A DNA stretch of 64,000 nucleotides from Azospirillum brasilense (GCF_003349955.1 NZ_QLKQ01000005.1:62001-126000), one strand, 5' to 3'. Positions 12,487-48,745 are shown, counted from the stretch's first letter. The notes: generated by a model from the letters alone, not told the origin. Program-made: numbers and translations.

Positions 12487-12498
12487 GACGGCGGATGG

Positions 12499-26951: not shown

Positions 26952-26980
26952 TTGCAAAATCATGCAGTAAGCGCTAACTT
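26952..26980 (+). promoter_or_regulatory. Putative promoter and palindromic operator before the tail genes
   Basis: TTGCAA (26952-26957), a 17-bp spacer and TAACTT (26975-26980) form a sigma70-like promoter. Overlapping it is gtaagcgctaac (26967-26978), one mismatch from the perfect palindrome GTAAGCGCTTAC found upstream of the fibre gene. It lies 61 bp before the first tail gene, in the 165-bp gap after the host regulator gene. Confidence 0.5.
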
Positions 26981-27041
26981 AGTTTTGGTAAGACGCTGCG
27001 CTCAGCCACGACGCGGCGCGACCTGATGAAGGAGAATGCGT

Positions 27042-27563
27042 ATGGCCATTGCTGCTGAAAACATCGCGCTCGGCGTTTGCGACGTGACCTTTGCGACGCT
27101 CGACCTGGGCGCCACCAAGGGCGGCGTCGAGGTGGCGATCGAAACCTCGACCTACGAGGTGACCGCCGACCAGACCGGCGAGACGCCGATCAAGGAGGTC
27201 ATCACCGGCACCACGGTCACCGTCACGGTGCCGATGCTGGAAACCAACCTGACCAAGCTGCTCGACGTCATGCCGCAGGCCATCGGCATCGGCGCGCCGG
27301 GCTCGGAAGTCGGCATCGAGATCCGCTCGGGCGTCAACACCGACCTGCTCGAAGTCGCCGGCGAGCTGAAGCTGCACCCGACCGGCCTGCCGGCGTCCGA
27401 CACCGCCCAGGACTTCATCGCCTTCAAGGCGGCGCCGGTGCCCAACTTCACCTTCCGCTACGCGACCGGCGAGGAGCGTGTCTACGAGGTGACCTTCAAA
27501 TGTTACCCGGACACCACCGCCAACAACAAGATCGCGGCCTTCGGCAAGCCGACCGCGGCCTGA
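27042..27563 (+). CDS. Phage tail tube-like protein
   Basis: 173 residues. ATG 27042 is preferred over 27036 because aaggag lies 7 bp upstream. The protein is rich in Thr/Val beta-strand patterns (TTVTVTVPMLETNLTKLL, FTFRYATGEERVYEVTFKCY), as in siphophage tail tube subunits. It occupies the tail tube position of a lambda-like tail cluster, directly before the G/GT chaperone genes and tape measure. A hairpin follows it, as expected for a gene needing more transcript than those downstream. I assign it mainly on position and size. Confidence 0.65.
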   Translation: MAIAAENIALGVCDVTFATLDLGATKGGVEVAIETSTYEVTADQTGETPIKEVITGTTVTVTVPMLETNLTKLLDVMPQAIGIGAPGSEVGIEIRSGVNTDLLEVAGELKLHPTGLPASDTAQDFIAFKAAPVPNFTFRYATGEERVYEVTFKCYPDTTANNKIAAFGKPTAA

Positions 27564-27571
27564 CGATCCGG

Positions 27572-27592
27572 CGCCCGGCTTCATGCCGGGCG
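27572..27592 (+). terminator. Hairpin after the tail tube gene
   Basis: cgcccggc and gccgggcg form an 8-bp stem with a 5-nt loop. No T run follows, so partial termination or protection of the upstream transcript end is more likely than full termination. Confidence 0.45.
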
Positions 27593-27643
27593 TCCGACCC
27601 ACGCCAATTCCGATCCATTCATTCCAAAGGAAGACCGCCCCCG

Positions 27644-27988
27644 ATGACCGACATCCTCAACCTCGACGCCCTCAAGGTCACCCGTCTGGTCGTCCTCGAC
27701 GGCCGGGAGCGCACGCTGCGCTCGATGACCGTGGAGCAGTTCATCGAGGCCGACGATTTCGACGCCAGGCTCGCCGACGCCACGGGCAAGGAGAAGCTGA
27801 CGCTGCTGATCGGCAAGCTGCTGGAGTTCCTCGACGGCACCACCCACGCCGATCTGCTCAAGCTCGACATGACGCAGCTGATGGCGCTGCTGGCCTTCGC
27901 CCGCGGCTCCGACCTCTCCAAGCTGACCGACGCCGGCGAGACCCCGGACGGAACCGCGGTGGGAAACGCGGTGGCCGGGTCGAAGTAG
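27644..27988 (+). CDS. Tail assembly chaperone (lambda G-like)
   Basis: 114 residues, ATG preceded by aaaggaag. A small acidic helical protein, MTVEQFIEADDFDARLADAT then LTLLIGKLLEFLDG, in the slot between tail tube and tape measure. Near its 3' end is the heptamer GGGAAAC in the right phase for -1 slippage (see 27961-27967), so the gene also yields a longer G-T fusion. In lambda both products load onto the tape measure during tail assembly. Confidence 0.75.
   Translation: MTDILNLDALKVTRLVVLDGRERTLRSMTVEQFIEADDFDARLADATGKEKLTLLIGKLLEFLDGTTHADLLKLDMTQLMALLAFARGSDLSKLTDAGETPDGTAVGNAVAGSK
27961..27967 (+). other. Slippery heptamer for programmed -1 frameshift (G to GT)
   Basis: The sequence G_GGA_AAC is in the X_XXY_YYZ phase relative to the G reading frame (codon GGA starts at 27962). 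Lambda uses GGGAAAG at the same place in gene G. Slippage moves ribosomes from G into the -1 frame, which is open to the stop at 28296. Confidence 0.8.
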
Positions 27989-28296
27989 TCCAGCTCGATT
28001 TTGGATTCTACTTCGCTCGGATGATGCGCTTCTACGGCATGAGCTTCGCCGCCGTGCGCCGGATGCCCATCCGGGCCTTCTGGCTCCTGAACGACATGAT
28101 CGACCGGGTCCGCGCCGAGGAAGTTCTGGAGATCCTGCCGGCGCACAGCGTCGCGATGGGCGGCGAGCATGTGAAGCGGATCGTCAAAGGTCTGCACACC
28201 CGCCTCGGCCGCCCGCAGATTGTGGAGACCGTGACGATGTCCGACGAGGACATCAGGAAGGCCCGGCGCCTGTTCGGCGCGGGTGGATCTGTGTAA
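27967..28296 (+). CDS. T part of the G-T fusion chaperone (reached by -1 frameshift)
   Basis: After the slip, reading continues in the -1 frame for 109 codons to TAA at 28294-28296, giving a fusion of about 217 residues. The T part contains DFGFYFARMMRFYGMSFA and WLLNDMIDRVRAEEVLEILP, then a basic helical C-terminus. No good independent ribosome site precedes the in-frame ATGs at 28021 and 28024, which supports expression only as a fusion. The stop codon lies inside the palindrome that precedes the tape measure gene. Confidence 0.7.
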   Translation, partial: RGGRVEVVQLDFGFYFARMMRFYGMSFAAVRRMPIRAFWLLNDMIDRVRAEEVLEILPAHSVAMGGEHVKRIVKGLHTRLGRPQIVETVTMSDEDIRKARRLFGAGGSV

Positions 28297-28308
28297 GCAC
28301 GTACTTAC
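28293..28308. promoter_or_regulatory. Palindrome before the tape measure gene
   Basis: GTAAG-cacgta-CTTAC has the same half-sites as the GTAAGCGCTTAC palindromes before the tail tube and fibre genes, but with a 6-bp instead of a 2-bp spacer. It ends 14 bp before the tape measure ATG. Confidence 0.45.
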
Positions 28309-28322
28309 TGGAAGGATTCGTC

Positions 28323-30452
28323 ATGGCTTCGAACGCCACCACTCTGACCGTCGGGCTCGATTTCGACACCGCGTCTTTCACCAGGGACCTCAAGGCAGCG
28401 ACCGCGGCCATGACAACCTTCCAGAAGGCCGCCAAGCAAACGGACGGGCTGCTGTCCAGCCTCGCGCAGGGCTTCTCCAACGCCGGGGATATGGCCAACC
28501 GGATGGTCAAGGCCAGTGGGAGGATGACCAACCTGAAGCGCAAGCTGGCGGCCGTCACCGGTTCGGCCAATGAAATGAACAGGGCACTCCACGCCGGCGC
28601 GGCACGCGCTGGAAACTACGGCAGGGCCGTCGACGACCTGCACAGAGCGGCGCTGGGAACAGGGTTGGGCCTCGATGCGCTGGCGAAGTCGTACTCCACG
28701 GTCACTTCGGCCGCCAGCTCGGCCAGCATCGCCGCGGAGGACGTGCGCCGGGCGATCGAAGGCACGATCGGGACTGGCCAGCGCATGGGCGCCAGCAACG
28801 GGGACAAGCAGCGCGTCCTCAGCGCCATCCGTCAGGTGGTCATCAAAGACACGCCGCAAATGAAGACCGCGGCCAGTCCGATCGGCAAGGCCAACACCAG
28901 CACGTTCGGTGCGGCCCCGGCTCTCGCTTCGTCCGGCAAGGACAAGCCGGGCGCGGTCGGTGGCCAAGGGAATGCGGGCTCCGCCACCGCTGGGCAGCCC
29001 GCCGCGAACGGGTCGCCTCCGTTGGGTCAGGACGATCCCGCGTATCTTAACAGCCAGACCCTTCAGAACAAGCAGATGGTTGGGGTGCTGAACACCAATC
29101 AATGGCGCAATGACAAATACCAATTCCAAAAATCAAGCGTCGACCTTGAGATGGCTCGGCTCTACTACGAATACAGCCTGGACGCCGAGCAGCGCCTGCA
29201 ACTCATCCGCGCCGACGGGATCAAAAATTTCACGGAGAAATTTTCCGGCTTGATCACCGGTGTGCTGAGCGGACAAACGGGCATCGTCACCGGCGTGCGC
29301 TCGATGTTCGCAAGCATGGGCAAGTACATGCTTGATTTCTTCGCCAAGTGGGCTTCCCAGAAGCTCATGATGAAGGCGATCGACACCATCGGCGATCTTT
29401 TCGGCTTCGACTTCGGCGTCGGCTCCGGCGCAGGGAATGCCAAAGGCTCCGCGTCAGGTCCCGCCCCCGAGAGCGCCGGCTCCGGTGCATCGGGCGGCGT
29501 GCTCGGCCAAGCCAAGCCGGGTGGGGTGAGCGGACCGGCCAGCGCGGGCTCCGCCCCCGCTGGGCAGTCCGCCGCGAACGGCTCGTCTCCGTTGGGCAAG
29601 GACGATCCCGCGTATCTTCACGACCAGACGCTTCAAAACAAGCAGATGTTCGGTGTGTTGAACACCGATCAATGGCGCAATGACAAATACGAATTCCAGA
29701 AATCGGCCGTCGATCTTGAATTGAGCAAGCTCTACTACGATTACAGCCTGGACGCCGAGCAACGCCTGCAACTCCTTCGCGCCGAGGGAGCAAAGAGTTT
29801 CACCGAGCAATTCTCCGGCGTCATCACCGGCGTTCTGAGTGGGCAGATGACCCTCATCGAGGGCGCGCGCTCGATGTTCGCAAGCATGACCAAGTTTATG
29901 ATCGACTTCTTCGCCAAGTGGATTTCCCAGCAACTGCTGATGAAGGCGATCACCGGCATTGGAAAGATATTCGGCTTAGGTGGATCGCCCGATCCGTTGG
30001 CAAACTGGGAATCCCAGGCACAGTCCGCTGGCGATGCGGTGATGGCGGCGTACGCTCCAACGGCGCACAGCGGCGGCGTTCTCGGATCGTCGCGTCTCGC
30101 CACCACGCTGGTCAGCCCGTCCGTCTTCGACGGTGCGCCGAAGCTCCACTCCGGCGGCTTGCTGCGCGGCGAGGTGCCGATCATCGCCAAGCGTGGCGAG
30201 GGCGTCTTCACCCCGGAGCAGATGGACAACGCTGACAATCTTCTGACGTCAGCGCTTACTTCTGGAAACACATCACCATCCATTCATCAGGAGGTCACCG
30301 TGAACGTGAGCGGTGGGGCCGGCACGAGCGAACAGAACACCGATCTGGCCGACAAGATCGGCCGGCAGGTGAAGGCGGAACTGCGCGGTCTGATGACCGA
30401 GGAGATGCGCCAGCAAATGCGTCCCGGCGGTCTGCTGCGGGGAGGCTACTGA
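28323..30452 (+). CDS. Tail tape measure protein
   Basis: 709 residues, with ggaagg upstream. The N-terminus (LTVGLDFDTASFTRDLKAAT then AAMTTFQKAAKQ) and the C-terminal HSGGLLRGEVPIIAKRGEGV, followed by FTPEQMD, are typical of lambda H-like tape measures. The middle contains a 136-residue segment present twice (residues 218-353 and 408-543). At about 0.15 nm per helical residue it would specify a tail near 105 nm (inference). Parts are clearly less GC-rich than the surroundings: 29101-29160 has 28 G/C of 60. This points to a separate origin. Confidence 0.88.
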   Translation: MASNATTLTVGLDFDTASFTRDLKAATAAMTTFQKAAKQTDGLLSSLAQGFSNAGDMANRMVKASGRMTNLKRKLAAVTGSANEMNRALHAGAARAGNYGRAVDDLHRAALGTGLGLDALAKSYSTVTSAASSASIAAEDVRRAIEGTIGTGQRMGASNGDKQRVLSAIRQVVIKDTPQMKTAASPIGKANTSTFGAAPALASSGKDKPGAVGGQGNAGSATAGQPAANGSPPLGQDDPAYLNSQTLQNKQMVGVLNTNQWRNDKYQFQKSSVDLEMARLYYEYSLDAEQRLQLIRADGIKNFTEKFSGLITGVLSGQTGIVTGVRSMFASMGKYMLDFFAKWASQKLMMKAIDTIGDLFGFDFGVGSGAGNAKGSASGPAPESAGSGASGGVLGQAKPGGVSGPASAGSAPAGQSAANGSSPLGKDDPAYLHDQTLQNKQMFGVLNTDQWRNDKYEFQKSAVDLELSKLYYDYSLDAEQRLQLLRAEGAKSFTEQFSGVITGVLSGQMTLIEGARSMFASMTKFMIDFFAKWISQQLLMKAITGIGKIFGLGGSPDPLANWESQAQSAGDAVMAAYAPTAHSGGVLGSSRLATTLVSPSVFDGAPKLHSGGLLRGEVPIIAKRGEGVFTPEQMDNADNLLTSALTSGNTSPSIHQEVTVNVSGGAGTSEQNTDLADKIGRQVKAELRGLMTEEMRQQMRPGGLLRGGY
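28974..29383 (+). repeat. Tape measure internal duplication, copy 1
   Basis: A 410-bp segment encoding residues 218-353, repeated 570 bp downstream without indels. By eye about 104 of 136 residues match copy 2. The block NDKYxFQKSxVDLE and SLDAEQRLQL is the best conserved part. Confidence 0.85.
29544..29953 (+). repeat. Tape measure internal duplication, copy 2
   Basis: Second copy of the 410-bp segment, residues 408-543, at a constant 570-bp (190-codon) offset. A Gly/Ala/Ser/Pro-rich linker of about 54 residues separates the copies. Confidence 0.85.
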
Positions 30453-30453
30453 C

Positions 30454-30804
30454 ATGGCGTTCCCCATCTTCGCTCCGGCCATCCCGCCGAGCCCCGGCAC
30501 GGAAATCGCTCCGGAGGTCAGGGTGCTCGCCGCCGATTTCGGCGACGGTTACCGCCAGCGCGCCGCCGATGGCCTGAACAGCGTCCGCGACACCTTCGCC
30601 TTCGCCTGGGAGGCCCTGCCGGCCGCCGACGCCGACGCCATCGTCGCCTTCCTCAAGGCGCGCCTCGGCGCCGAGGCGTTCCTCTACACGCCGCCCGGCG
30701 AGAGCGCGCCGCGCAAGTTCACCTGCACGAAGTGGGCGCGCAAGCGCGTGCGCTTCTCCTACCACCAGATCACCGCCACCTTCGTCGAGGTTTTCGACCT
30801 ATGA
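30454..30804 (+). CDS. Minor tail protein (lambda M-like)
   Basis: 116 residues with ggagg 9 bp before the ATG. It resembles lambda gpM: VRVLAADFGDGYRQRAADGL matches the FGDGYxQRxxxGLN core, then FLYTPPGESAPRKFTCTKW. gpM acts at the tail tip during initiator assembly. It starts one base after the tape measure stop and overlaps the next gene by 4 bp. Confidence 0.85.
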   Translation: MAFPIFAPAIPPSPGTEIAPEVRVLAADFGDGYRQRAADGLNSVRDTFAFAWEALPAADADAIVAFLKARLGAEAFLYTPPGESAPRKFTCTKWARKRVRFSYHQITATFVEVFDL

Positions 30805-31541
30805 CCACGGCGACCACCCCCCGCAGCGCCGCCCAGGCGAAGATCGCCAGCGAGGCGCAGAAGGCGGCGACCAGCCCCTACGTCGTGCTCTACCAGCTCG
30901 ACGCCCGCGTCCTCGGCGGCGACGTCTACTGCTTCACGCAGTCGACCCGGGAATCGGCGCCGATCACCTACGGCGGCGTCGAGTACACCCCGATCGATCT
31001 GGAGGCCGACGGCTTCGAATGGACCGGCGCCGGCACGCTGCCGACGCCGCGCGTCCGCATCGCCAACGCCAACCGCGCGATGAGCGCGCTCGTCGGCACC
31101 TACGACGACCTGCTCGGCGCCACGCTGACGCGCATCCGCACCTTCCGGCGCTTTCTCGACGGCGAACCCGACGCCGATCCCGGCGCCCATTTCCCGCTCG
31201 ACATCTACCGCGTCGAGCGCAAGGTCGCGCTGACCAAGACGCACATCGAGTGGGAGCTGTCGGCGGCGATGGACCAGGAGGGCAAGATGCTCCCCGGCCG
31301 GCAGGTGCTGCGCGACGCCTGCACGCACACCTACCGGCGCTGGACCGGCGCCGGCTTCGACTATTCCCAGGCCACCTGCCCCTACACCGGCTCCGCCTGT
31401 TTCAAGGCCAGCGGCGATCCCACCGGCAACAGCGCCGAGGACGACTGCGGGCGCAAGGATTCCGACTGCAAGAAGCGCTTCGGCGAGTCCGCGGTGCTGC
31501 CCACGCGCGCCTTCCCCGGCGTCGCCCGAGTGAGGATCTGA
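30801..31541 (+). CDS. Tail tip protein (lambda L-like, Fe-S cysteines)
   Basis: 246 residues. The C-terminal quarter carries Cys174, Cys193, Cys216 and Cys223 in the arrangement of lambda gpL, whose C-terminal domain binds a [4Fe-4S] cluster; an extra Cys200 is present. The N-terminal part, PITYGGVEYTPIDLEADGFE, is the tip-ring-forming region. ATG overlaps the M-like gene (ATGA). It should form the baseplate-like hub together with the I-J fusion. Confidence 0.85.
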   Translation: MTTATTPRSAAQAKIASEAQKAATSPYVVLYQLDARVLGGDVYCFTQSTRESAPITYGGVEYTPIDLEADGFEWTGAGTLPTPRVRIANANRAMSALVGTYDDLLGATLTRIRTFRRFLDGEPDADPGAHFPLDIYRVERKVALTKTHIEWELSAAMDQEGKMLPGRQVLRDACTHTYRRWTGAGFDYSQATCPYTGSACFKASGDPTGNSAEDDCGRKDSDCKKRFGESAVLPTRAFPGVARVRI

Positions 31542-31545
31542 TCCC

Positions 31546-32250
31546 ATGTTCACGCCCGATGCCGTCGCGGCCATGCAGGCCCACGCCATCGCCGCCTTCC
31601 CCGAGGAAAGCTGCGGCATGGTGGTCGACAACGCTTACAAGCCGCTCGCCAACACGCACCCCGACCCGACCCGCCACTTCCACATCGCCGACGCCGATTA
31701 CCTGACCCACGCGGACGGGCTTCAGGCGGTGGTCCACTCCCACCCGATGGGGCCGCTGCACCCGTCGGGCGACGACATGCGCGGCCAACTGGCGACCGGC
31801 GTGCCGTGGGCGATCATCCCCACCGACGGCGAGGCCGCCGGCGCCCCGATCGTCTGGGGCGCCGGTGCGCCGGTGCCGCCGCTGATCGGCCGGCCCTTCG
31901 TGCACGGCGTCACCGACTGCTACGCGCTGTGCCGCGATTATTACCGCGACACCCTGGGCATCGCCGTGGCCGATCAGGCGCGCGACGACGAATGGTGGGA
32001 CCACGGCGAGAATCTCTACCTCGACGGCTTCCAGGAACGCGGCTTCGTCACCGTCGACCGCGCCATGATGCGCCCCGACGACGTGGTGCTGATGGCCATC
32101 CGCTCCAAGGTGCCCAACCACGCCGGCATCGTCATGCCGAACGGTCTGATTCTGCACCATCTGCAAAAGCGCCTGTCGCGCCGCGAGCCGCTCGGCCCAT
32201 GGATGCGCTTTGTGACGCATGTCCTTCGTCACGGGAGTGTCACGCCATGA
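31546..32250 (+). CDS. Tail assembly protein (lambda K-like: JAMM + NlpC/P60)
   Basis: 234 residues. The N-terminal JAMM/Mov34 metalloprotease has Glu20/21 and H64-x-H66-x7-S74-x2-D77 (HSHPMGPLHPSGDD). The C-terminal NlpC/P60 peptidase has catalytic Cys125 (GVTDCYALC) and His192 (VPNHAGIV). Lambda gpK has the same two domains and is thought to process or assist tip assembly and possibly cut peptidoglycan. All catalytic residues are intact, so the gene looks functional. Its stop overlaps the next ATG. Confidence 0.9.
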   Translation: MFTPDAVAAMQAHAIAAFPEESCGMVVDNAYKPLANTHPDPTRHFHIADADYLTHADGLQAVVHSHPMGPLHPSGDDMRGQLATGVPWAIIPTDGEAAGAPIVWGAGAPVPPLIGRPFVHGVTDCYALCRDYYRDTLGIAVADQARDDEWWDHGENLYLDGFQERGFVTVDRAMMRPDDVVLMAIRSKVPNHAGIVMPNGLILHHLQKRLSRREPLGPWMRFVTHVLRHGSVTP

Positions 32251-35200
32251 TGCGCCGCGTCCATCTCTACGGCGCGCTGCGCAAGGAGTTCGGCAAGGGC
32301 TTCACGCTCGACGTGGACTCGGTGGCCGAGGCCGCCCGCGCGCTCGAAGCCAACTTCCCCGGCCGCTTCTTCAAGGCCCTGCGCGACGGCGCGTTCAAGC
32401 TGGTGCGCGGCGACAAGCGCAGCGGCCTGGTGCTGAACGAGCAGGAGTTGACCTTCCGGCTCGGCAGCGGTGACCTGCACATCATCCCGGTGCCGAAGGG
32501 GGCGGCGGCCAGCCAGAAATCCAAGGGCGGCGCCAAGGCGGTGATCGGCGTCGCCATCATGGCGGTGGCGATCATCGCCGCCCCGGTGAGCGGCGGCGGG
32601 TCGATGGCCGCTTGGAGCACCGCACTGAGTCAGACGGCCTTCGCTGGTATCACCTACGGCAGCATCGCCATGTTCGGCCTGTCGCTGGCGCTGTCCGGCG
32701 TCTCGATGATGCTCAGCCCGCAGGCCAAAATGGGCGACCTGGAGAGCGTCGAGAACCGCAAGTCGTTCCTCTTCAACGGGCCGGTCAATTCCATCGAGCA
32801 GGGCGGCCCGGTGCCGCTCATTTACGGCCGCCTGCGCGTGGGCTCGACCGTCGTCTCCGCCGGCATGGCCCCGGAACAGATCATGTCCGGCGGTCCCACC
32901 GGTGGCAACGGGTCGGAGATGACCACGGTGGTGCTGGCCGGGTCGCTGTGGATCGTCACAACGACGTACCCTGACATCAGTCACTTCCATGTCGGCACGG
33001 TCCGGGGCGGCACGCTGCATCTGGCCGACCACACGCCGGTCGAGGCCGACAGCCTGCTCACCGTCGCCCAGGTGGCCGGCGGCCTGCGCTTCATCCCCGA
33101 CAGCGACGAATTCACCCGCGGCGTCTTCACGATCCAGGCGGCGCGCCGGGTCGGCAACGACTACAACTTCGTCGGCGCCCTCGTCGAGACCGAGGCCGGC
33201 GGCGAGGCCGACCCCTGGGGAGGCTCCGGCTTCAATCGCACCGTCGCCGATGGCGGCATCTCGGGTTCGGGCGGCGGCAAGGGCGGCGGCGGTTCCGGCG
33301 GCGCGCGTGAGGACGCCGACAGCCTGCAGTCGCGCTCGACCGCGCGCGTCGTCGACCTGATCGGCGAGGGCGAATTGGAGGAACTGCCCGTTGGCAACTC
33401 CAAGGGCGTCTACTTCGATGGAACGCCGCTCGAAAACGCCGACGGCACGCTGAATTTCAAGGGCGTGAACTGGGAAAGCCGGGTCGGTCTGCCGAGCCAG
33501 GACCACATCGCCGGCTTCGCCGCCGCCGAGAACGAGGTCGCCGTCTCCACCCGCGTGCGCGCCGACACGCCGGTGATCCGCACCATCACCGACACCGACG
33601 CGCTGCGCGTCACGCTGCGCTTCCCGATGATGACCCAGCAGGACGCCGACGACGGCGATCTGCACGGTTCGAAGGTGCAGATCGCCATCGACGTGCGGCC
33701 CTACGGCGGCGGCTGGCGCGAGACCGTCCTCGACACCATCGAGGGCAAGGCCACCGCCGCCTACGAGCGCGCCTACCGCATCGAGCTGCCGGAGGGCGGC
33801 GCGCCGTGGGACGTGCGGGTGCGCCGCCTCACCCCGGACAGCACCAGCGCCACCGTCCAGAACGAGAGCTGGTGGTCGAGCTACACGCAGATCGTCGACG
33901 GCAAATACAGCTACCCGGACAGCGCGCTGATCGCGCTGACGGTCGACAGCGAGCAGTTCGGCTCGTCGATCCCGGCGCGCTCCTACGACGTCAAGGGCCT
34001 GCGCGTCAGCGTGCCCGACATCTACGACCCGGAAAACCACAGCTACGCCAACGGCGGCATCTGGCAGGGCGGCTTCAAGACGGCGTGGACCGACAACCCG
34101 GCCTGGGTGCTCTACGACCTGATCACCAACACGCGCTACGGCCTGGGCCGGGTGATCGACGCCAGCCAGATCGACAAATGGAGCCTCTACCAGATCGCGC
34201 AATACTGCGATCAGCCGGTGCCCAACGGCGCCGGCGGCTGGGAGCCGCGCTTCACCTTCAACGGCATCATCCAGACCCGCGAGGATGCCTACAAGGTCAT
34301 CCAGTCGATCTGTTCGGCGTTCCGCGGCATGGCCTTCTGGGCGGCCGGCCAGGTCTTCGCCAGCGCCGACATGCCGGGCGACGACAGCGTGATCGTCGCG
34401 CCGGCCAACGTCCTCGACGGCGTCTTCTCCTACGCGGGAACGGCGCTGAAGGCGCGGCACACCGTCGCCAAGGTGGCGTGGAACGATCCCGCCGACGCCT
34501 ACCGCGGGGCGATCGAGGTCATCGAGAACACCCGGCTGATCGAGCGCCACGGCCACCGCGAGATCGAGGTGTCGGCGTTCGGCTGCACGAGCCGCAGCCA
34601 GGCCCGCCGTCTCGGCCTGTGGATTCTCGACAGCGAACAGCACGAGACCGAGACCGTCACCTACCGCTGCTCCTTCGACCACCTGGAGGTGACGCCGGGA
34701 CAGATCATCCAGGTCGCCGACCCGGCCTACGCGCTGGTGCGCCTGGGCGGCCGGGTGGCCTCGGCGACGGTGGGCCGGGTGACGCTCGACGCCCCGGTGA
34801 CGCTGGAGGCCGGACACGCCTACACGCTGTCCGTGACGCTCCCCGACGGCCGCGTCCTCGACCGCGCCGTGACCGGTGGGATCGGCGAGCATGGCGCGTT
34901 GACGCTGGTCGACCCGTTGCCGGTGGCTCCCGACGCCGGGGCGATGTGGTCGCTGTCGAGCGCCAGCCTGACCCCGCGCCGCTTCCGTGTCCGCAGCATC
35001 CGCGAGCTGGAACCCAACGTCTTCGAGGTGACGGCGCTCCTGCACGACCCGACCAAGTACGCGCGGGTCGAACAGGGTCTCAACCTGCCGGCACCGGCCT
35101 ACCAGGGCGGCGTCACCCCGCTGCCGGCGCCGGCCAACCTGCGGGCGGTGGAAAGCGTCTACTGGGTCAACGGGCTGCCGCAGGCCCGCGTCTCGGTGAG

Positions 35201-37637: not shown

Positions 37638-37652
37638 GAGGCGAAATCGGAC

Positions 37653-38117: not shown

Positions 38118-38284
38118 GCGCCGAGCAGATCGCCGAGGAGCGCCGACGGCGCTACCTCGCCGCCTGGCCGATGCACGCCCAGCTCGAAGCCCAGCACGAT
38201 GCGGCCAACGGACGTCCCGAAAAGCTGGAGCGCATGACCACCGACTTCGCACGCATCAAGGCCGACCTGCCCTTCCCGGATTGA
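38096..38284 (+). CDS. Small phage tail-region protein
   Basis: 62 residues, ATG at 38096 with a strong aggaggt 6 bp upstream. An arginine-rich helix (LSAEQIAEERRRRYLAAWP) is followed by an acidic helix. Comparable short proteins precede tail fibre genes in many alphaproteobacterial prophages; function is unknown. It overlaps the preceding gene in another frame, which together with the ribosome site supports it being real. Confidence 0.6.
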   Translation: MRLSIRLSAEQIAEERRRRYLAAWPMHAQLEAQHDAANGRPEKLERMTTDFARIKADLPFPD

Positions 38285-38307
38285 AATCCGCTGGCTTCGA
38301 TGCTACA

Positions 38308-38319
38308 GTAAGCGCTTAC
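38308..38319. promoter_or_regulatory. Perfect palindrome upstream of the fibre gene
   Basis: GTAAGCGCTTAC lies in the 86-bp gap before the fibre gene. A possible promoter surrounds it: TTGAAA (38281-38286), 18 bp, TACAGT (38305-38310). TATACT at 38321-38326 is another -10 candidate. Near-copies occur at 26967, 28293 and 46595. Confidence 0.55.
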
Positions 38320-38370
38320 ATATACTGAGGCCGCACCCTATGCCGGCCCAACGGCGACGGAAAGACAGCA

Positions 38371-41300
38371 ATGCCACAGACTTGGTATCGTGACGGCTCC
38401 GTCACTCTGATCAACGGCTCCACGGCGGTGACCGGATTCGGTACGCTGTGGGCCTCGCAGGTGTTTCCGGGCGACGTCTTCTCGCCCGACGGCGACCGCT
38501 TCTACGAGGTGGCGGACGTCGCCTCGAACACCGCGCTGACCCTGCGCACGCCCTACACCGGCACGAGCCGGCCGCCAGTGGCCCAGGTCAACACGATCAC
38601 GCCGCACGTCGTCAGCACGACCACGGCGCAGACCGACGAGATCTCCATCAACGACTTCGTCTACCAGTTCACCAGCGACGCCTCGCCGACCGTGGCGGAG
38701 ATCTGCGCCGGCCTGGCCGCGCGCATCAACGCCTCGCCGACCTGCCCGATGACCGCCGTGGCGACGGACGGCACCGTCGTCCTGACCGCCAAGACGCCCG
38801 GCCAACCGCTCACCGTCATCGTCTCGGCCAATCTGACCAGCGGCCTGACCACCCCGGCCAGCGCCGGCTCCGGCTACATGGTGATCCGCAACTTCGCGGG
38901 CACCATGGCCGCCGATGTCGCCAACCGCATGGCCGATCTGGTCCGCAAATGGCAGCTGCGCGAGGACGAGTTCGTCGCCTGGATGGCCGGCGACCCGCGC
39001 GGCGGACCGAACGGCGACGGCAAGTATCCGCTGACCGACACGCAGGGCAACGTGCGCCTCGTCGAGACGCCGTCGGCGCTGCTGGAGATGATCGACGGCG
39101 GCCTGATGGACAATGTCCAGCTGGTGATCGACGCGATCGAGGACGACGTCGTGGCGGCCCAGTTGGCGGCGACCGAAGCGTCCGAAGCGGCGGTGGCCAC
39201 GGCGGCGGCGCGCAACGCCGCGCAGGCCAGCCAGGCGGCGGCCCTGGTCAGCGAAACCAACGCGAAAGCCAGCGAGACCGCGGCCAAGGCAAGCGAAGCG
39301 GCGGGAGCGGCGAGCGCCGGAATCGCATCGCAGTCGGCTCTCGCGACGGCCCGGGCCGAGACGTCGGCCCTGGCCGCGAAGACCGCGGCCGAAACGGCGA
39401 ACGCCGGTGCCCAAGCGGCGAAGACGGCGGCGGAGGGCGCGTCCGCCGCCGCCAAGGCCAGCGAAACCATGGCGAAGGCCAGCGAAGCGGCCGCCAAGAC
39501 CAGCGAGACCGGAGCCGCGGCGAGCGCCCAGACGGCGACGACCCGCGCCACGGCCAGCGCCACCTCGGCCTCCCAGGCCGCGAGCAGCGCGACCAGTGCC
39601 GCCGGTTCGGCGTCCGCCGCCGCGACCAGCGCCCAGACGGCGACGACCAAGGCGAGCGAGGCGGCGGCCAGCGCGGCGGCGGCCAAGACCAGCGAGACCA
39701 ACGCCAAGACCAGCGAGACCAACGCCGCCGGCTCCGCTTCGGCGGCGGCTGGATCGGCCTCCAACGCCGCGACCAGCGCTCAGGCGGCGGCCGGGGCGAT
39801 GACGGCGGCCGAGACGGCGAAGACCGGCGCCCAGGCGAGCGCGGCCACGGCCACGAACGCCGCCACCGCCGCGTCCGGTTCCGCCACCGCCGCGCAGTCC
39901 AGCGCGGGCGCCGCCAAGGCGTCGGAAACCGCGGCGGCCACCGCGGCCGCCCAGGGACAGGGCAGCGCTTCGGCATCGGCGGCATCGGCAACCCAGGCGG
40001 CGGCCTCGGCGACCAGCGCCGCGACCAAGGCCGGCGAATCCACGACCAGCGCCAACGCCGCCGCGGCCAGCGCCACCGCGGCCCAGAGCAGCGCCAACAC
40101 CGCCGCCACCCACCTGTCGGGCGTGCAGGCCAACGCCACCGCCGCGGCGAACGCCCGCACGGCGGCCGAGGGGGCGCGCGACCAGGCCGCGGCGAGCGCG
40201 GCGACCGCGGTCTCCAGCGCCCAGGCCGCCGACGCCAGCGCGCAATCCGCCTCGGCCGGCGCCACCAACGCCAACACCGCCGCCGCGGTGGCCGGCACCT
40301 CGGCGACCGACGCCGTCAACGCCAAGATCGACGCGGTGTCCGCGCGCGACATCGCGCAGCAGATGCGCGACCAGGCATCGGCGCAGCGCGAACTGGCCGC
40401 GTCCTGGGCGTCGAACGGCTTCAACGTGCCGGTGCAGTCCGGCGCCTACTCGGCGCTGCACTGGGCGTCGCTGGCCAAGCAGTATGCGGACACCGCCGGG
40501 ACCATCGTCGGCGGCTTCAGCTTCTCCGCCATCGGCGACGGCAACCAGCAGAAATTCACCGCCTCGATGCCCGGCGACACGATGCATTTCGTGCAGGGCT
40601 CGAACATCAACATCAATTACGACGCGGCGCTCAAGCGCCTGACCTTCTCGGCCACCTCCAAACCGGTGGACACCGAGCATGCGGGCCTCGCCGTGCGCGA
40701 CGACAACACGGCGGGCAAGACCTTCCTGTCGCTCGTCCCGGCCAGCATCGCCCACCAGTCGCTCGGTGGGGCCGGAGCCAACACGCACGCGCAGATCGAC
40801 GCCCACATCGCCGCCACCGGCAATCCGCATGGCACCAACTCGAACGACATCGAATACATCGACCCGGCGTACGGAACGGTTGGGCCGCTGTCCGACGTCA
40901 TCGCCGACCTTTACGCCACGAAGATTGACAAGGGAAACCCGGTCGTCCAAGGGACGATGACGCTGAGCGTTGATCCCAGCAGCGACATGAATGCCGCCAC
41001 GAAGCGGTATGTCGACCACCTGCCGTCCAAACGCAACGTCCGCTACGCCACGACCGGCGACCTTGGGCCGGTGACCGCGACCACGACGACGCTCACCGGA
41101 CCTTCCGCCAGCTACACCGCCACCGGAACGACGGCCAACGGTTCCGCGTCGGTGACGAACGTCGCCAACGCCAGCTCCAAGGTCAAGGTCGGGGCGACCG
41201 TCACCGGAACCGGCATCCCCGCATCCACGACGGTCACGGCGGTGAATGGCACGACGGTGACGCTGTCGGCCAACGCCGCGGCCGGCGGCACTCCGTCGCT

Positions 41301-44300
41301 GACATTCACCCAGAGCATCGGAGCGCTGGCGATCGATGGTGGGATCACCGCCCTGAACGACCGCGTTCTCGTCAAGGATCAGTCGATCGGAAGTCAGCGC
41401 GGCATCTATTATCTGTCCACAATTGGAACGTCGTCGGTGCCGTGGGTGCTGACGCGCTCCACCGATGCCGATTCCTGGACCAAACTGCTCGGCGCGCAGG
41501 TGCTCGTCGAGGCCGGGGCCACCCTGGCGGACACAGCGTGGATGATGCTGTCCGACAGCGGAGGCACGCTCGGCACCACGACGCAGGTTTGGCAGGCGTA
41601 CGCCTCGCCGAACGCGTACTCGCTCATCAACATGACGGCCAACGGGATTGTCGCGCGAGCGGCCAATGGCGGCTTCACCGTCCGCGCCATCACGGGGACG
41701 CCGAACGAAATCAGCGTGGCCGAAGGCGGCGGCGTCGCGGGCAACCCGACGATCAGCCTGCCCTCCGCGCTCGCGCTTGGCGGCAAGGCGGTGACGGTCG
41801 GCGACGCCAACTTCACCATCCAGGACACCGGCGACACCACCAAGCTGGTCAAGTTCGAACTCGGCGGCCTGACCACCGGAACGACGCGCACGCTGACGGT
41901 TCCCAACGCCTCGGGCACCCTGACGCTGGACGGCCACGGCCACACATGGAGTGACATCACCAGCGGCAAGCCGACGACGGCGGCGGGCTGGCTGACCGAC
42001 GTGCTTCTGACCGGCAACACCGCGCACCAGACCGGCACCTTCGACGCGATCCGCCTGTGGGACACCGACAGCACCCACGCGCTGCGGATCGGCAATGGCA
42101 CGGATCTCACGGCCGACCGCACGCTGACCATCGCCACGGGCGACGCCAACCGAACCCTGACCATCCCCGGCAACGCCACGGTCAGCGGCACCAACACCGG
42201 CGACCAGACGATCACCCTGTCCGGACCGATCACCGGCAGCGGCACCGGGATCATCGTCACCTCGATCCAACCCAACGTGGTCGGCGACAGCCACCTCCGC
42301 CAGGGCGCCGCGACCTCGGTGGTCGGGCGGGCCGCCAACAGCGCGGGCAACGTCGCCGACATCGCGGCGACCACCGACAACACCTTCCTGGCGCGGCGCG
42401 GCGGCACGCTCACATTCACCAGCCCGACCTGGAGCGACATCGCCAGCGCCAGCAAGCCCACCAGCCTGTCGGGGTACGGCATCACCGACGCTCAGCCGCT
42501 CAACAGCATGCTCACCACCTTGGCGGGCCTCGACGGCAACGCCGGCGTGCTGGTGCAGACGGCGGCGAACGCGGTGTCCAAGCGCGGCATCGGCACGGCC
42601 AACGCCAGCGACATCCTCGACCGCACGGCGGGCGACAGCCGCTACGCGCAGCTGACCGGCAACGTAACCTTCGGCGGAAACCTCTACGTCGGCAACGGAC
42701 ACCCCTCGGTGAACTTCCGGGAGACCGACGCCGCCACCGACACCAAGGCATGGACCCTGGACGTCGAGAACGGGCGCTTCCTTGGCGTGCTGGCAAACGA
42801 CAGCAACACGGCCTGGACGACCTGGCTGAACGTGCAGCGGTCGGGGATGACGGTGTCCAACATCGCCCTGGCCGGCAGCGCCCTGACCTTCAACGGCAAC
42901 AACATCCTGACCACGGCGACCGGCGCCCCGCTGTCCGGGGCGGCGTTCACCGGCAACGTCTCCCTGCGCACCGCCGGGGGCGGCAACCTCAAGGTGCTCG
43001 GCACCGGCAACGCGGGGGTGGAGCTCGGGCGCGACGACGGCGTCGCCAGCACGCCGTTCCTGTACTTCCATTCCGGGGCGACCTACACGACCTACGACGT
43101 CTCGCTGATGGCGTCGGGCGGCAACGGAACCAACGGGCAGGGCACGCTCAACATCCAATCGGCCCTGCTCCAACACAACGGTAGCAACGTCCTGACCGCC
43201 GCGCACTGGTCCACCCAGGCGACGCCGAACACGGCGATGCTGCGCGACGGAGCGACGAATGTGGCGGCGGGGGCCTATACGGCGACCGGCACCTACCCCG
43301 CGGTCTTCTTTCACGACACCGACGCCGCCGCCAACAGCAAGCGGTGGCGCCTGGCGGCGAACACCGCGCAGATGGACATCGCCATCGACTCCGACGACTT
43401 CTCGTCGACGGTCGGCGTGATGTCGTTCTACCGCAACACCACCACGCCGACCGGAATCAGCGCGTGGGCTCCAGTCACGGTCAACGCGAATGTGGCGGCC
43501 AACGGGGCGCATCTGCACCTGCAAACCGGCGGCGGCTCGCTGGGCCGCAAGTCGGTGACCCGCCACTACGGCACGTTCGCCGGAGGCACCGCCGACACCG
43601 GGCAGCGGGTGGTCGGGCGCACCGAGGCCGGTTTCAGCACCGCCAACTGGGGGACCGAGTATTACGCGATCTGCCTGAACTCGACGGCCAACGACGCGGC
43701 CTCCGACGCCAACATGACCGCCTACCTGACGCTGACCAAGGACACGGCGCAGTTCAAGGCGAAGACCGAGACCTACCTCGCCCAGCTGGGCACGACGGTC
43801 GGCAACGCCGTCGTCCACAATCAGGCGGTGTCCGGTTCGGGCGCCTCCAACACCGACTATCTGCGCACGCACATCCAGCGCTTCGCCGGCACCAACACCG
43901 CCTGGACTTCGGCGGGGTGGCGCATCCAGCGTCAAGTCGACCTGACCCCGCAGGGTTACATTCAATTCGGCGGCGAGGGCAACGACCACGGTGTCTACAT
44001 CGGCTCCGGCGCAGGAGCGGCGCACCGCCTGGCCATCCCGTCGTCGGGCAATGTGACCATCGACGGCAGCTCGGTCTACACCACGGCGAACCTGAACGGA
44101 ACGTGGCTGGGGCAGGATTTGCGCACCACCGCCGCGCCGACGTTCAACGGCGTCGCGTCCACGGGCTCCCTTCTCGCCCTGACCGCCGACGGCATCCGCC
44201 ACAAGCAAGGCAGCAGCTCCGCCGGGTACGGCATCATCCACCGCAACGACGGGGGCAACTACTACATCCTGCTGACCAACAGCAACGACGCCAACGGGAG

Positions 44301-46071
44301 CTGGAACAGCCTGCGTCCGCTCCGGATCGCCCTCGACACCGGTGGGGTGTATGTCGGGAACGGGCTCGGCGTGGCCGGCGGGCAGGATGTCACCAGCGGG
44401 CATGTGCAGCTCAGCCACGCAACCACCGAGCAGCACGTCAAGTTCGTCAAGACCGGGGTGAACGCCGGGTTCTACGGTGTCGCTGCGGGCGTCGGGTTGT
44501 ACGACTGGCTCAACAACCGCAGTGTGTGGAGCTACAACATCGCGGCCGCCCGGTTCGATGTGAGATTGAACACCAATTTCGGCGGCAACATCGGCGTGAA
44601 CGCCGGCAACGCCATCTACTTCGGGCGTGAGGAGCAGTTCGGCGGCACGGACACCGGCGGCGCCGACTACGGATGGATCGCCTGGACGAACGACGACGAC
44701 ACCTATGCCATCGACGGCAGCAGCGGCGAGAACGGCCTGCTGAGGATCGGCACCAGCAACGACGGGCCGGGGCCGAACTCCGACAACATGGCCTTGACCC
44801 CGAGCGGCGACCTCTACCTGGAGCCCGGCGGCGACGTCTATGTCGGCAACGCCGCGACGCGCAAGTTGGTGTGGCACGAAGGAAACCAGCAGGACGTCCG
44901 CAGCACCGCGACGCCGAGCTTCGCCGGTATTCTCGCGACTGGGCAGGTGAACGTCAGCACCACACTGGGCAACCAGGGCGCCCATCTGTTCCTGGCGCCG
45001 ACCGCCGGCGGTAACGGCCGGGAGGGCAAACTGCGCTTCGGCGGCACCTTCGCCAGTGGCGCCGATCAGATGCCCCGCCTCGTCGCCTCGCTGCGGTCGG
45101 GCTTCTCTTCGGGGGCCTGGGGCAACGAATACCTCGACGTTTACCTCAACAATCAGACCAACGACACCCAGGAGGATACCAAGCAGGCCCGCATCGCCCG
45201 CTTCACCACCGGCGGTTTGATCGTCAACGGGACCATCACCGGCACGCTGAACGGCAACGCGGCGACCGCGACCACCGCCACCACGGCGAACCGGGTGGCG
45301 AACGCGCTGACCATCAACGGCACCGTTTACGATGGTTCGTCGGCGCAGAGCGTCACCATCGCCAGCAGCGATGGCACCAAACTGCCGCTGGCCGGCGGAA
45401 CGATCACCGGTGGTCTGACGGTCAACAACAGCATCTCCGTGGCGAATGGCCTGACGGTGACCTCGGGCGGTCTCGGCGTGTCCGGCAACGGCAGCGTCTC
45501 GGGCGAGATGTCGGCCAACACTCTGCGAGCGTCCGGCGCCCATGCCTACGTGGACAATGGAGGCTGGGGCAACACTCACCTGTGGCTGCGCACGGGCGGC
45601 GGGGCAAACGACCGCGGGCTGCTCTACTACTCCACCGACGACCATCTGCGCCTGGAACTGCGCAACGGCAACGGCGGTACCAGATCGTCCCTGACGCTGA
45701 ATCCGGATGGCGGCGCCCAATTGGCGGGGGCGACCATCGGCTCGGACGGCAATCTTTGGATGGGTTGGTGCAATGACTGGCTGTCGAACGTGCTGGCCCG
45801 CAAGATGGACAACGGCACCAAGGCGGTGGGTTACTGGCACGTCTGGAGCGGCGCGACACAGAACGAGATCGATCTGAATTCCTGGGGACCGGGCGTCTAC
45901 GCCGTGGACCTCGACAACGGGCGTTGGACGGTCATCAACGTCGACAACGGCCTGAACGCCAACCTCTCCGACGGCTCGCTGAACCGCTGGTACACCGTCA
46001 ACGCGCGCTACGTCAACGCGCGCTACGGCTCGTGGATTCGCAACGTCTTCAAGCTCTATCCCGCCAACTGA
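38371..46071 (+). CDS. Giant tail fibre protein (2566 residues)
   Basis: The N-terminal attachment domain (about 1-70) begins MPQTWYRDGSVTLINGSTAV. A Ser/Thr/Ala/Glu-rich coiled-coil stretch (about 260-685) consists of repeats such as ASETNAKASETAAKASEAA, as in lambda side tail fibres. The rest is beta-rich with Gly/Asn/Thr repeats. Two related modules lie near 1720-1796 and 2205-2283 (GFSTANWGTEYY versus GFSSGAWGNEYL), each associated with a DLRTTAAPTFNGV or DVRSTATPSFAGI segment. The C-terminus ends SWIRNVFKLYPAN; no S74 chaperone peptidase signature was seen. It should be a trimeric long fibre that recognises a cell-surface glycan or protein. Confidence 0.88.
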   Translation: MPQTWYRDGSVTLINGSTAVTGFGTLWASQVFPGDVFSPDGDRFYEVADVASNTALTLRTPYTGTSRPPVAQVNTITPHVVSTTTAQTDEISINDFVYQFTSDASPTVAEICAGLAARINASPTCPMTAVATDGTVVLTAKTPGQPLTVIVSANLTSGLTTPASAGSGYMVIRNFAGTMAADVANRMADLVRKWQLREDEFVAWMAGDPRGGPNGDGKYPLTDTQGNVRLVETPSALLEMIDGGLMDNVQLVIDAIEDDVVAAQLAATEASEAAVATAAARNAAQASQAAALVSETNAKASETAAKASEAAGAASAGIASQSALATARAETSALAAKTAAETANAGAQAAKTAAEGASAAAKASETMAKASEAAAKTSETGAAASAQTATTRATASATSASQAASSATSAAGSASAAATSAQTATTKASEAAASAAAAKTSETNAKTSETNAAGSASAAAGSASNAATSAQAAAGAMTAAETAKTGAQASAATATNAATAASGSATAAQSSAGAAKASETAAATAAAQGQGSASASAASATQAAASATSAATKAGESTTSANAAAASATAAQSSANTAATHLSGVQANATAAANARTAAEGARDQAAASAATAVSSAQAADASAQSASAGATNANTAAAVAGTSATDAVNAKIDAVSARDIAQQMRDQASAQRELAASWASNGFNVPVQSGAYSALHWASLAKQYADTAGTIVGGFSFSAIGDGNQQKFTASMPGDTMHFVQGSNININYDAALKRLTFSATSKPVDTEHAGLAVRDDNTAGKTFLSLVPASIAHQSLGGAGANTHAQIDAHIAATGNPHGTNSNDIEYIDPAYGTVGPLSDVIADLYATKIDKGNPVVQGTMTLSVDPSSDMNAATKRYVDHLPSKRNVRYATTGDLGPVTATTTTLTGPSASYTATGTTANGSASVTNVANASSKVKVGATVTGTGIPASTTVTAVNGTTVTLSANAAAGGTPSLTFTQSIGALAIDGGITALNDRVLVKDQSIGSQRGIYYLSTIGTSSVPWVLTRSTDADSWTKLLGAQVLVEAGATLADTAWMMLSDSGGTLGTTTQVWQAYASPNAYSLINMTANGIVARAANGGFTVRAITGTPNEISVAEGGGVAGNPTISLPSALALGGKAVTVGDANFTIQDTGDTTKLVKFELGGLTTGTTRTLTVPNASGTLTLDGHGHTWSDITSGKPTTAAGWLTDVLLTGNTAHQTGTFDAIRLWDTDSTHALRIGNGTDLTADRTLTIATGDANRTLTIPGNATVSGTNTGDQTITLSGPITGSGTGIIVTSIQPNVVGDSHLRQGAATSVVGRAANSAGNVADIAATTDNTFLARRGGTLTFTSPTWSDIASASKPTSLSGYGITDAQPLNSMLTTLAGLDGNAGVLVQTAANAVSKRGIGTANASDILDRTAGDSRYAQLTGNVTFGGNLYVGNGHPSVNFRETDAATDTKAWTLDVENGRFLGVLANDSNTAWTTWLNVQRSGMTVSNIALAGSALTFNGNNILTTATGAPLSGAAFTGNVSLRTAGGGNLKVLGTGNAGVELGRDDGVASTPFLYFHSGATYTTYDVSLMASGGNGTNGQGTLNIQSALLQHNGSNVLTAAHWSTQATPNTAMLRDGATNVAAGAYTATGTYPAVFFHDTDAAANSKRWRLAANTAQMDIAIDSDDFSSTVGVMSFYRNTTTPTGISAWAPVTVNANVAANGAHLHLQTGGGSLGRKSVTRHYGTFAGGTADTGQRVVGRTEAGFSTANWGTEYYAICLNSTANDAASDANMTAYLTLTKDTAQFKAKTETYLAQLGTTVGNAVVHNQAVSGSGASNTDYLRTHIQRFAGTNTAWTSAGWRIQRQVDLTPQGYIQFGGEGNDHGVYIGSGAGAAHRLAIPSSGNVTIDGSSVYTTANLNGTWLGQDLRTTAAPTFNGVASTGSLLALTADGIRHKQGSSSAGYGIIHRNDGGNYYILLTNSNDANGSWNSLRPLRIALDTGGVYVGNGLGVAGGQDVTSGHVQLSHATTEQHVKFVKTGVNAGFYGVAAGVGLYDWLNNRSVWSYNIAAARFDVRLNTNFGGNIGVNAGNAIYFGREEQFGGTDTGGADYGWIAWTNDDDTYAIDGSSGENGLLRIGTSNDGPGPNSDNMALTPSGDLYLEPGGDVYVGNAATRKLVWHEGNQQDVRSTATPSFAGILATGQVNVSTTLGNQGAHLFLAPTAGGNGREGKLRFGGTFASGADQMPRLVASLRSGFSSGAWGNEYLDVYLNNQTNDTQEDTKQARIARFTTGGLIVNGTITGTLNGNAATATTATTANRVANALTINGTVYDGSSAQSVTIASSDGTKLPLAGGTITGGLTVNNSISVANGLTVTSGGLGVSGNGSVSGEMSANTLRASGAHAYVDNGGWGNTHLWLRTGGGANDRGLLYYSTDDHLRLELRNGNGGTRSSLTLNPDGGAQLAGATIGSDGNLWMGWCNDWLSNVLARKMDNGTKAVGYWHVWSGATQNEIDLNSWGPGVYAVDLDNGRWTVINVDNGLNANLSDGSLNRWYTVNARYVNARYGSWIRNVFKLYPAN

Positions 46072-46083
46072 GGGCCATCCGTC

Positions 46084-46506
46084 ATGAAATACGTCCATTA
46101 CGACGAAAACAACGTGGTCACCGGCTATACCCAGTTCGTGGTCGGCTTCGCGCCGCCCACCGACGGCGCCTACATCGAAGTGGACGAGGCGGTCGAGGTC
46201 GGGATCGGCATGCTGATCGACCCCGTCACCGGCACGCTGTCGGCCAACCCGGAGCCCTATGTCCCGGTCGGCCCGGTCCCGGAAACGGTGTCGCCACTGC
46301 AAGCCCGCATGGCGCTGCTCGAAGCCGACCTGCTCGACGACGCCGAAGCCTTCGTGGCGACGCTGAGCAAGCCTGAACAACTCGCCTGGCAATATGCCAG
46401 CGAGGTCCGCCGCGACAACGCGATCATCGCCAAGGCGGCGGCGCATCTCGGCCTCGATGACGACCGGATCGACGCCTTGTTCCGGCGGGCGTCGAGCTTC
46501 GCCTGA
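46084..46506 (+). CDS. Fibre-associated small protein (possible fibre assembly factor)
   Basis: 140 residues, 12 bp behind the fibre stop. The N-terminal half is a small beta domain (MKYVHYDENNVVTGYTQFVV). The C-terminal half is helical: SPLQARMALLEADLLDDAEA, then QLAWQYASEVRRDN and a short LGLDDDRIDALFRRA helix. This C-terminal pattern recurs in proteins encoded directly after phage tail fibres, which in several phages are fibre chaperones. The role here is inferred from position. Confidence 0.7.
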   Translation: MKYVHYDENNVVTGYTQFVVGFAPPTDGAYIEVDEAVEVGIGMLIDPVTGTLSANPEPYVPVGPVPETVSPLQARMALLEADLLDDAEAFVATLSKPEQLAWQYASEVRRDNAIIAKAAAHLGLDDDRIDALFRRASSFA

Positions 46507-46562
46507 TGCGTTCTCTCGGTGCCGACCGGTACGAAAGACAGCGGCGGATGATCACTTTTCGC

Positions 46563-46606
46563 TTGATCGGCCCAATGCTTTCGTCAAATAATAAGTAACC
46601 GCTTAC
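46563..46606 (+). promoter_or_regulatory. Promoter-like site with tail-module palindrome
   Basis: TTGATC (46563-46568), 18 bp and AATAAT (46587-46592) are followed directly by gtaaccgcttac (46595-46606), a one-mismatch variant of the tail-module palindrome placed around the expected transcription start. Confidence 0.5.
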
Positions 46607-46620
46607 TCATGGAGAAAGAG

Positions 46621-46671
46621 GGTGCCGGTTTGAGCCACGTCAACGAAGCGCATGGCTCCGCAACCGGCACC
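46621..46671 (+). other. Large hairpin (possible structured leader RNA)
   Basis: ggtgccggtt (46621-46630) pairs with aaccggcacc (46662-46671), and gagcca (46632-46637) pairs with tggctc (46653-46658). This gives 16 bp with a small internal loop and a 15-nt apical loop. No T run follows, so it is more likely a leader structure than a terminator. Confidence 0.55.
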
Positions 46672-46745
46672 GCCGCTCCACGGGTACAAAGGCGCATAGG
46701 GCCGTCATCACGACGCGCAGCGGCCGCTGACGGCGCCTCGTCAAG

Positions 46746-46777
46746 ACGCTCGACGGGGGCGGCAACCCGTCGAGCGT
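46746..46777 (+). other. 12-bp perfect hairpin before small gene
   Basis: acgctcgacggg pairs with cccgtcgagcgt across an 8-nt loop. It ends 39 bp before the ATG of the small gene at 46817. The sequence after it is C/A-rich, not T-rich, so it may be an attenuator or leader element. Confidence 0.5.
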
Positions 46778-46816
46778 TCCCGCCACCAACCACAACCCAT
46801 CAGAAGAAAGATCATC

Positions 46817-47032
46817 ATGTCCGACACCATCACCGCTCCGGCCACCACGCCGGCCGCCGCCCCGACCATCGCTCCGGCCACATCCGCTCCGGAATCCCGC
46901 CCGGCGACGCACGTCGCGCTTCCGGTCGAACTGGCCAACGGCATCCTCAACTATCTGGCCCAGCGCCCCTATGGCGAGGTGGCCGACCTGATCCGGGGCA
47001 TGGAAGCGACCAGCGTCGGCGTCGCCCCCTGA
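46817..47032 (+). CDS. Small hypothetical protein at the end of the tail module
   Basis: 71 residues with agaaaga before the ATG. The N-terminal 35 residues are Ala/Pro/Thr-rich and disordered. The C-terminal half is a compact helix pair, LPVELANGILNYLAQRPYGE then VADLIRGMEA. Short proteins with this C-terminal pattern are found near phage structural genes; function unknown. It has no hydrophobic segment long enough for a holin. Confidence 0.5.
   Translation: MSDTITAPATTPAAAPTIAPATSAPESRPATHVALPVELANGILNYLAQRPYGEVADLIRGMEATSVGVAP

Positions 47033-47149: not shown

Positions 47150-48745
<1,596 letters not shown>

Follow-up and report, generated by a model that had tools for sequence, protein, structure and literature searches.

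Headless phage tails and related elements

F-type pyocins are headless lambda-like phage tails that act as bacteriocins. The F cluster of Pseudomonas aeruginosa begins at PA0633, the gene for the F-pyocin tube, and in PAO1 the regulation and lysis genes are shared. F-type tailocins usually comprise a tail terminator, as well as lysis genes and a regulator or SOS control of their own, neither of the latter being strictly defining. Here, we describe a lambda-type tail cluster at positions 26967-47032 (plus strand) of a stretch of 64,000 nucleotides from Azospirillum brasilense (GCF_003349955.1 NZ_QLKQ01000005.1:62001-126000), hereafter termed the window. The host probably maintains this module for the production of a free, non-contractile phage tail, which makes the module a candidate target-diversifying F-type tailocin of a new lineage.

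Like the F2 pyocin of P. aeruginosa, the Azospirillum module consists of non-contractile lambda-type tail genes without a head, sits at a fixed host locus and has variable 3′ fibre genes. F2-pyocin proteins are the top solved matches in PDB for two of its products: F2-pyocin BHP for L (expectation value (E) 6e-32, ahead of lambda) and the F2-pyocin tail fibre for I-J (E 3.5e-163, ahead of lambda J). In contrast to F-type pyocins, the module is devoid of an adjacent regulator or lysis cassette and features a single fused I-J, a side fibre of 2,566 amino acids (aa), repeated palindromic candidate operators and an SSU5-type tube.

The first alphaproteobacterial F-type tailocin to be reported was rhizoviticin from Allorhizobium vitis, whose tail region matches A. 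vitis prophages and which retains a phage early region comprising a repressor of the LexA family, genes for replication and lysis and the remains of an integrase; several of these are essential for activity (PMC10811719). It is the one alphaproteobacterial F-type tailocin that we found in the literature, where we found no Azospirillum tailocin. Rhizoviticin and the Azospirillum module share an alphaproteobacterial, plant-associated host and the absence of head genes. However, the repressor, the replication and lysis genes and the integrase remnant do not occur in the Azospirillum cluster, and since the phage early region, with its LexA-family repressor and its replication genes, is missing, we do not class the module as a rhizoviticin.

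Two further groups of elements are related to the module. SSU5-type phage-plasmids, exemplified by the 117-kb plasmid of Methylobacterium sp. AMS5, employ the same tube family in the order terminator-V-G-T-H-M-L-K, but their upstream terminase, portal and capsid genes and their partition genes are lacking in the Azospirillum modules. Five other species or strains of Azospirillum (sp. TSH64, A. melinis, sp. B510, A. doebereinerae and A. oleiclasticum) harbour headless modules with the same gene order and variable fibres. These sister modules differ in possessing a terminator-like gene before the tube and, in TSH64, A. melinis and B510, also an endolysin after the fibre, and all five lack the GTAAGCGCTTAC sites of the module described here.

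The tail module and its locus

Profile matches and called open reading frames (ORFs) bear out a sequence-only reading of the window that had placed a lambda-like tail module without head genes between host genes. Its list of tail genes in lambda order stands, except that I and J constitute one fused ORF (32247-37637), and its core content is complemented by two additions at the 3′ end, a fibre-linked protein (46084-46506) and a 71-aa ORF (46817-47032). The order is thus tube, G/GT, tape measure, M, L, K, fused I-J, two small proteins, fibre, 140-aa protein and 71-aa ORF:

27042-27563, +: tail tube (V-like), 173 aa; phrog_2175, E 4e-44
27644-27988, +: G-like tail assembly chaperone, 114 aa, between tube and tape measure; phrog_893, E 9e-10
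27961-27967, +: -1 frameshift slippery heptamer GGGAAAC, joining G (from 27644) to the T frame ending at 28296
28323-30452, +: tape measure (H), 709 aa; TMP_3 at the N-terminus, several tape-measure PHROGs at the C-terminus
30454-30804, +: tail tip protein M; Phage_min_tail PF05939, E 4e-22; lambda M in PDB, E 1e-13
30801-31541, +: tail tip protein L (hub); Phage_tail_L PF05100, E 6e-44
31546-32250, +: K-like peptidase, JAB and NlpC/P60; Prok-JAB PF14464, PF00877; phrog_30, E 1e-87
32247-37637, +: fused I-J, tail assembly domain and central tip/host-specificity protein, 1,796 aa; phrog_32, phrog_31, FNIII-A_GpJ
37653-38117, +: conserved tail-associated protein, 154 aa; homologues at the same position of related modules
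38096-38284, +: conserved 62-aa protein before the fibre, similar to ORFs of 62-69 aa between J and fibre in relatives
38371-46071, +: giant side tail fibre, 2,566 aa; Gp34_trimer domain, tail-fibre PHROGs
46084-46506, +: fibre-linked protein, 140 aa, in the position of a tail-fibre chaperone (Tfa); phrog_6034
46817-47032, +: conserved 71-aa ORF, 63-71 aa across the window, MTCC4035 and Az39

The tube protein has no Pfam match and belongs to the SSU5-type tube family; the fold of its AlphaFold model (mean predicted local distance difference test score 73) matches those of tail tubes of solved structure, including the tube of the Listeria monocin. Translation places the GGGAAAC heptamer in the correct phase and yields an open G-T fusion in all three strains compared below (window, MTCC4035 and Az39). 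The tape measure gene contains an internal duplication of about 150 codons (28974-29417 versus 29544-29977, about 80% alike by cross-comparison), and duplication of such a block is a plausible route to an altered tail length. In the K-like protein, the JAB residues E...HSHP...SGDD and the NlpC residues C-H-H are present as judged by eye, in line with the earlier statement that its catalytic residues are intact. Residues 1-213 of I-J correspond to phrog_32 and the remainder to phrog_31, "central tail fiber J" (E 8e-286). The product of 46084-46506 is a putative Tfa.

A gene for a GlxA-type regulator lies directly upstream of the module and one for an AMP-binding protein downstream; in A. argentinense, the replicon carrying the module is a plasmid/chromid of 650-690 kb. 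The tube gene is present as a single copy in the genome, and a search for a second copy accompanied by head genes found none. The Azospirillum comparison did not reveal a clean empty site, because A. brasilense and TSH58 do not have the GlxA and AMP-binding genes side by side and the operon downstream of the module occurs in several places. This operon, which combines AMP-binding and short-chain dehydrogenase/reductase genes, adjoins different genes in several Azospirillum genomes and therefore looks mobile. Window position 47159 is the exact base at which homology to seven other Azospirillum genomes begins.

Conservation, selection and the exchanged fibre tip

The same block at the same locus, with intact frames and no capsid gene, was found in two finished plasmids of A. 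argentinense, p4 of strain MTCC4035 and p3 of strain Az39. Both carry the whole module with the same neighbours on either side, and every gene is annotated as a protein. DNA identity among the three strains is about 95% across most of the block, and in a protein search of plasmid records the tube was 100% identical in MTCC4035 p4, 93.6% in Az39 p3 and 69.5% in Azospirillum sp. B510. Translation of each module gene in all three strains gave no internal stop. Neither contiguous head or integrase genes nor widespread frameshifts, either of which the sequence-only reading had named as evidence against itself, occur in MTCC4035 or Az39.

Pairwise Nei-Gojobori estimates of the ratio of nonsynonymous to synonymous substitution (dN/dS), calculated by script among the three strains, amount to 0.04-0.06 for L, 0.20-0.37 for K, 0.09-0.36 for I-J and 0.23-0.50 for the tape measure. 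Values for small genes are loose, as they stem from few changes (G up to 0.70 on 12 changes, V 0.51 on 20 changes). In the sister set TSH64-A. melinis-B510, dN/dS is 0.00-0.23 for terminator (U), tube (V), M and K, and 0.18-0.41 for L. The core genes are thus under purifying selection, and the pairwise estimates agree with a functional cluster. The absence of stops in three strains and the low core dN/dS sustain the earlier view that the frames are open and the module has not decayed.

The 3′ end of the fibre gene follows a different pattern. Sliding identity over the last ~700 residues of the fibre is 92-100% between the window and MTCC4035, while both alike show 5-20% to Az39, apart from one block of 62-64%. 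The protein encoded at 46084-46506 matches this pattern (95.7% to MTCC4035, 58.8% to Az39). In the middle of the fibre (~800-1300), the window differs from both MTCC4035 and Az39. Despite the replaced tip, the 7.7-kb fibre gene stays open. In Az39, the fibre tip and its neighbour protein are thus exchanged as a unit, for which exchange of receptor binding would be the simplest reading.

The module thus combines an intact non-contractile tail set and the lack of head, integrase and replication genes with a fixed locus shared by strains, purifying selection on the core and an exchanged receptor-binding part, features by which an F-type tailocin is recognized. That one headless block occupies one locus in three strains, that the related modules are headless, too, and that core dN/dS is well below 1 lends support to the candidate F-type tailocin proposed by the sequence-only reading. 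In the mechanism envisaged, a DNA-binding protein encoded elsewhere would act on five palindromes and switch the gene groups together. The tube (V) would then polymerise to a length set by the 709-aa tape measure, about 105 nm by a lambda-like rule. Both the tip, consisting of M/L/K/I-J, and the side fibre would attach to the surface of related bacteria; opening of the envelope and depolarisation of the target would be the task of the tip. A. argentinense and its close kin are plant-growth-promoting soil bacteria, and strain Az39 has been an agricultural inoculant for four decades (PMC4110221); a weapon directed at related strains would thus have consequences for the competition of inoculants on roots.

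Missing functions and alternative explanations

Head, integrase or replication genes were found neither among the called ORFs of the 64-kb window nor in the adjoining 20 kb upstream. The PF04860 portal, the PF05135 connector and the SSU5-type capsid have no match genome-wide, in searches conducted family by family that did not extend to other head families such as the HK97 capsid PF05065. The cluster does not encode a repressor.

Several observations speak against the tailocin reading. A tail terminator is absent from the module, and neither PF12691 nor the TSH64 terminator has a match anywhere in the genome, although a diverged one is possible; control of tube length would therefore be imperfect unless a diverged protein substitutes. 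The module contains no lysis gene, holins not having been searched for, while in the TSH64, A. melinis and B510 modules an endolysin directly follows the fibre. Nor does it contain a regulator, and LexA-type boxes near its promoters are not above chance. Expression, particle or killing data for the module were not found in the literature. The earlier reading had rightly identified the missing terminator and lysis genes as its main weakness: sister modules own a terminator, and this module has neither. Two GH24 lysozymes are encoded elsewhere in the genome. One of them, a lone phage-type enzyme (12129-12620 of locus L115) near groES-groEL, has matches in 39 of 45 Azospirillum genomes, and a phage-related lysozyme has been assigned to the Azospirillum core genome (PMC3899980). 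This near-universal lysozyme next to groESL could act as release enzyme for the particle.

The gaps might instead be explained by a decaying prophage remnant, in which the tail region was left after loss of the rest and is now drifting. The block without terminator, lysis and regulatory genes, the absence of the terminator and endolysin that sister modules possess, and flanks formed by a rearranged junction instead of a clean site of insertion would all be accommodated. Yet frames are open in three strains differing by several percent, slippery site and palindromes are conserved, core dN/dS is well below 1 and the 7.7-kb fibre gene has remained open though its tip was replaced, which makes a remnant improbable.

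Alternatively, the tail-derived particle might serve a non-killing purpose, such as attachment to the plant root or to kin, or signalling with either. This would suit bacteria of plant roots with very long fibres, the laminin-G/lectin-like domains of the B510 fibre and a module for which no SOS-type control is seen. However, the paired swap of fibre tip and neighbour is the receptor-tracking pattern of phages and F-pyocins, and the closest resemblance of the tip and hub proteins is to a bactericidal pyocin; we therefore give this explanation little credence. That the module supplies tails to another element in the same cell, with heads provided by a second prophage, a satellite or a gene transfer agent, is very unlikely given a genome without PF04860 portal, PF05135 connector or SSU5-type capsid (the head families searched genome-wide), even though lysis and terminator functions could come in trans and mitomycin C-induced particles with ~10 kb of DNA have been reported for B510 and A. 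lipoferum (PMC3899980).

Repeated palindromes as candidate operators

The distinctive parts of the tailocin candidate are the missing terminator, lysis and regulator genes and a repeated palindrome. GTAAGCGCTTAC or a one-mismatch form of it occurs at 26967, 30248, 38308 and 46595, and a two-mismatch form at 28293, such that one palindrome lies beside each gene group. The candidate operators, given without strand, are:

26967-26978: candidate operator 1, GTAAGCGCTAAC; 63 bp upstream of the tube gene, kept in MTCC4035 and Az39
28293-28304: candidate operator 2, GTAAGCACGTAC(TTAC), two-mismatch form; just upstream of the tape-measure gene, GTAAGCGCGTAC in MTCC4035 and Az39
30248-30259: candidate operator 3, GTCAGCGCTTAC; within the 3′ end of H, 194 bp upstream of M
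38308-38319: candidate operator 4, perfect GTAAGCGCTTAC; upstream of the fibre gene
46595-46606: candidate operator 5, GTAACCGCTTAC; before the 71-aa ORF

Each of the five sites is conserved in both MTCC4035 and Az39. Genome-wide, six sites have at most one mismatch to GTAAGCGCTTAC, four of them in the module; a reversed-pattern control gave five. A motif-blind search of the module for repeated perfect 12-bp palindromes returned only GTAAGCGCTTAC, and five shuffled sequences gave none. Scanning 124 kb around the module with a weight matrix yielded no further good site. The two copies outside the module were considered as pointers to regulator or lysis genes and rejected as chance occurrences, since one lies inside a sulfotransferase gene and the other at the end of leuC. 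Five palindromes conserved in three strains and nearly confined to the module are a new finding. A regulator may bind them. We take the GTAAGCGCTTAC palindrome to resemble a LacI-type operator; a precedent for a LacI-regulated tailocin was not found in the literature. The repeated palindrome makes the trigger of the module testable.

The sister headless modules contain neither GTAAGCGCTTAC sites nor convincing analogous repeated palindromes. GTCGTCGACGAC occurs three times and is common to the TSH64 and A. melinis modules.

Headless relatives and origin

The tube family is present in 5 of 82 genomes of the order, all of them Azospirillum and including A. melinis, sp. TSH64, A. doebereinerae and A. 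oleiclasticum; the B510 module was found through a plasmid record. According to gene calls, host genes in the sister modules are followed by the terminator-like gene, PF12691 in B510, and then by the tube. When head proteins of the Methylobacterium AMS5 phage-plasmid were used as queries against the 10 kb upstream of the tube, terminase, portal or capsid was detected at 17 of the 22 tube-family loci outside Azospirillum. The remaining five loci, which are contig ends or distant matches, cannot be judged; one of these, in Photorhabdus (L056), has 10 kb upstream of the tube without a match. None of the three was detected upstream of the Azospirillum modules, the contig of A. melinis extending only 3.7 kb upstream. 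Headless modules in Azospirillum exist beside complete phage relatives of the same tube family, and the step from phage to tailocin becomes traceable.

In a tube tree, the window, A. argentinense, A. melinis, TSH64 and B510 form one group (100/100), and A. doebereinerae and A. oleiclasticum fall elsewhere. This topology would fit up to three separate headless lineages, its well-supported branches also being compatible with one origin. The module is a mosaic, as its L is closer to that of headed prophages in another genome of the set, G009 (69%), than to that of TSH64 (51%), while its tube is closest to TSH64 (72%). The prophages of G009 and G041, which have a similar L-K-J region, were rejected as headless relatives owing to apparent head-region genes. 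A possible but rather doubtful extension of the tailocin reading holds that headless particles arose several times in Azospirillum from phage tails of the SSU5 tube family, and that in the A. argentinense group such a particle was rewired into a regulon of its own, with one palindromic operator per gene group, a host non-SOS regulator and no dedicated terminator or lysis gene.

Some minor observations concern the relatives. One Azospirillum genome contains an SSU5-type capsid gene with 37% identity to that of the AMS5 phage-plasmid (G039:C66:38425-39309, L116), so a headed relative may exist in Azospirillum. In A. doebereinerae, a small divergent ORF upstream of the terminator-like gene (13502-13942 of L026/L027, concatenated and reversed) reads like an XRE-type regulator and has no Pfam match. 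Between insertion sequence elements and the module terminator of B510, ~6 kb without an annotated gene (L075:13381-19609) contain ORFs with low third-position GC. In TSH64, the module is found with identical spacing on Contig01 and Contig02 (L047 and L048), which may reflect a duplicated assembly or a second replicon.

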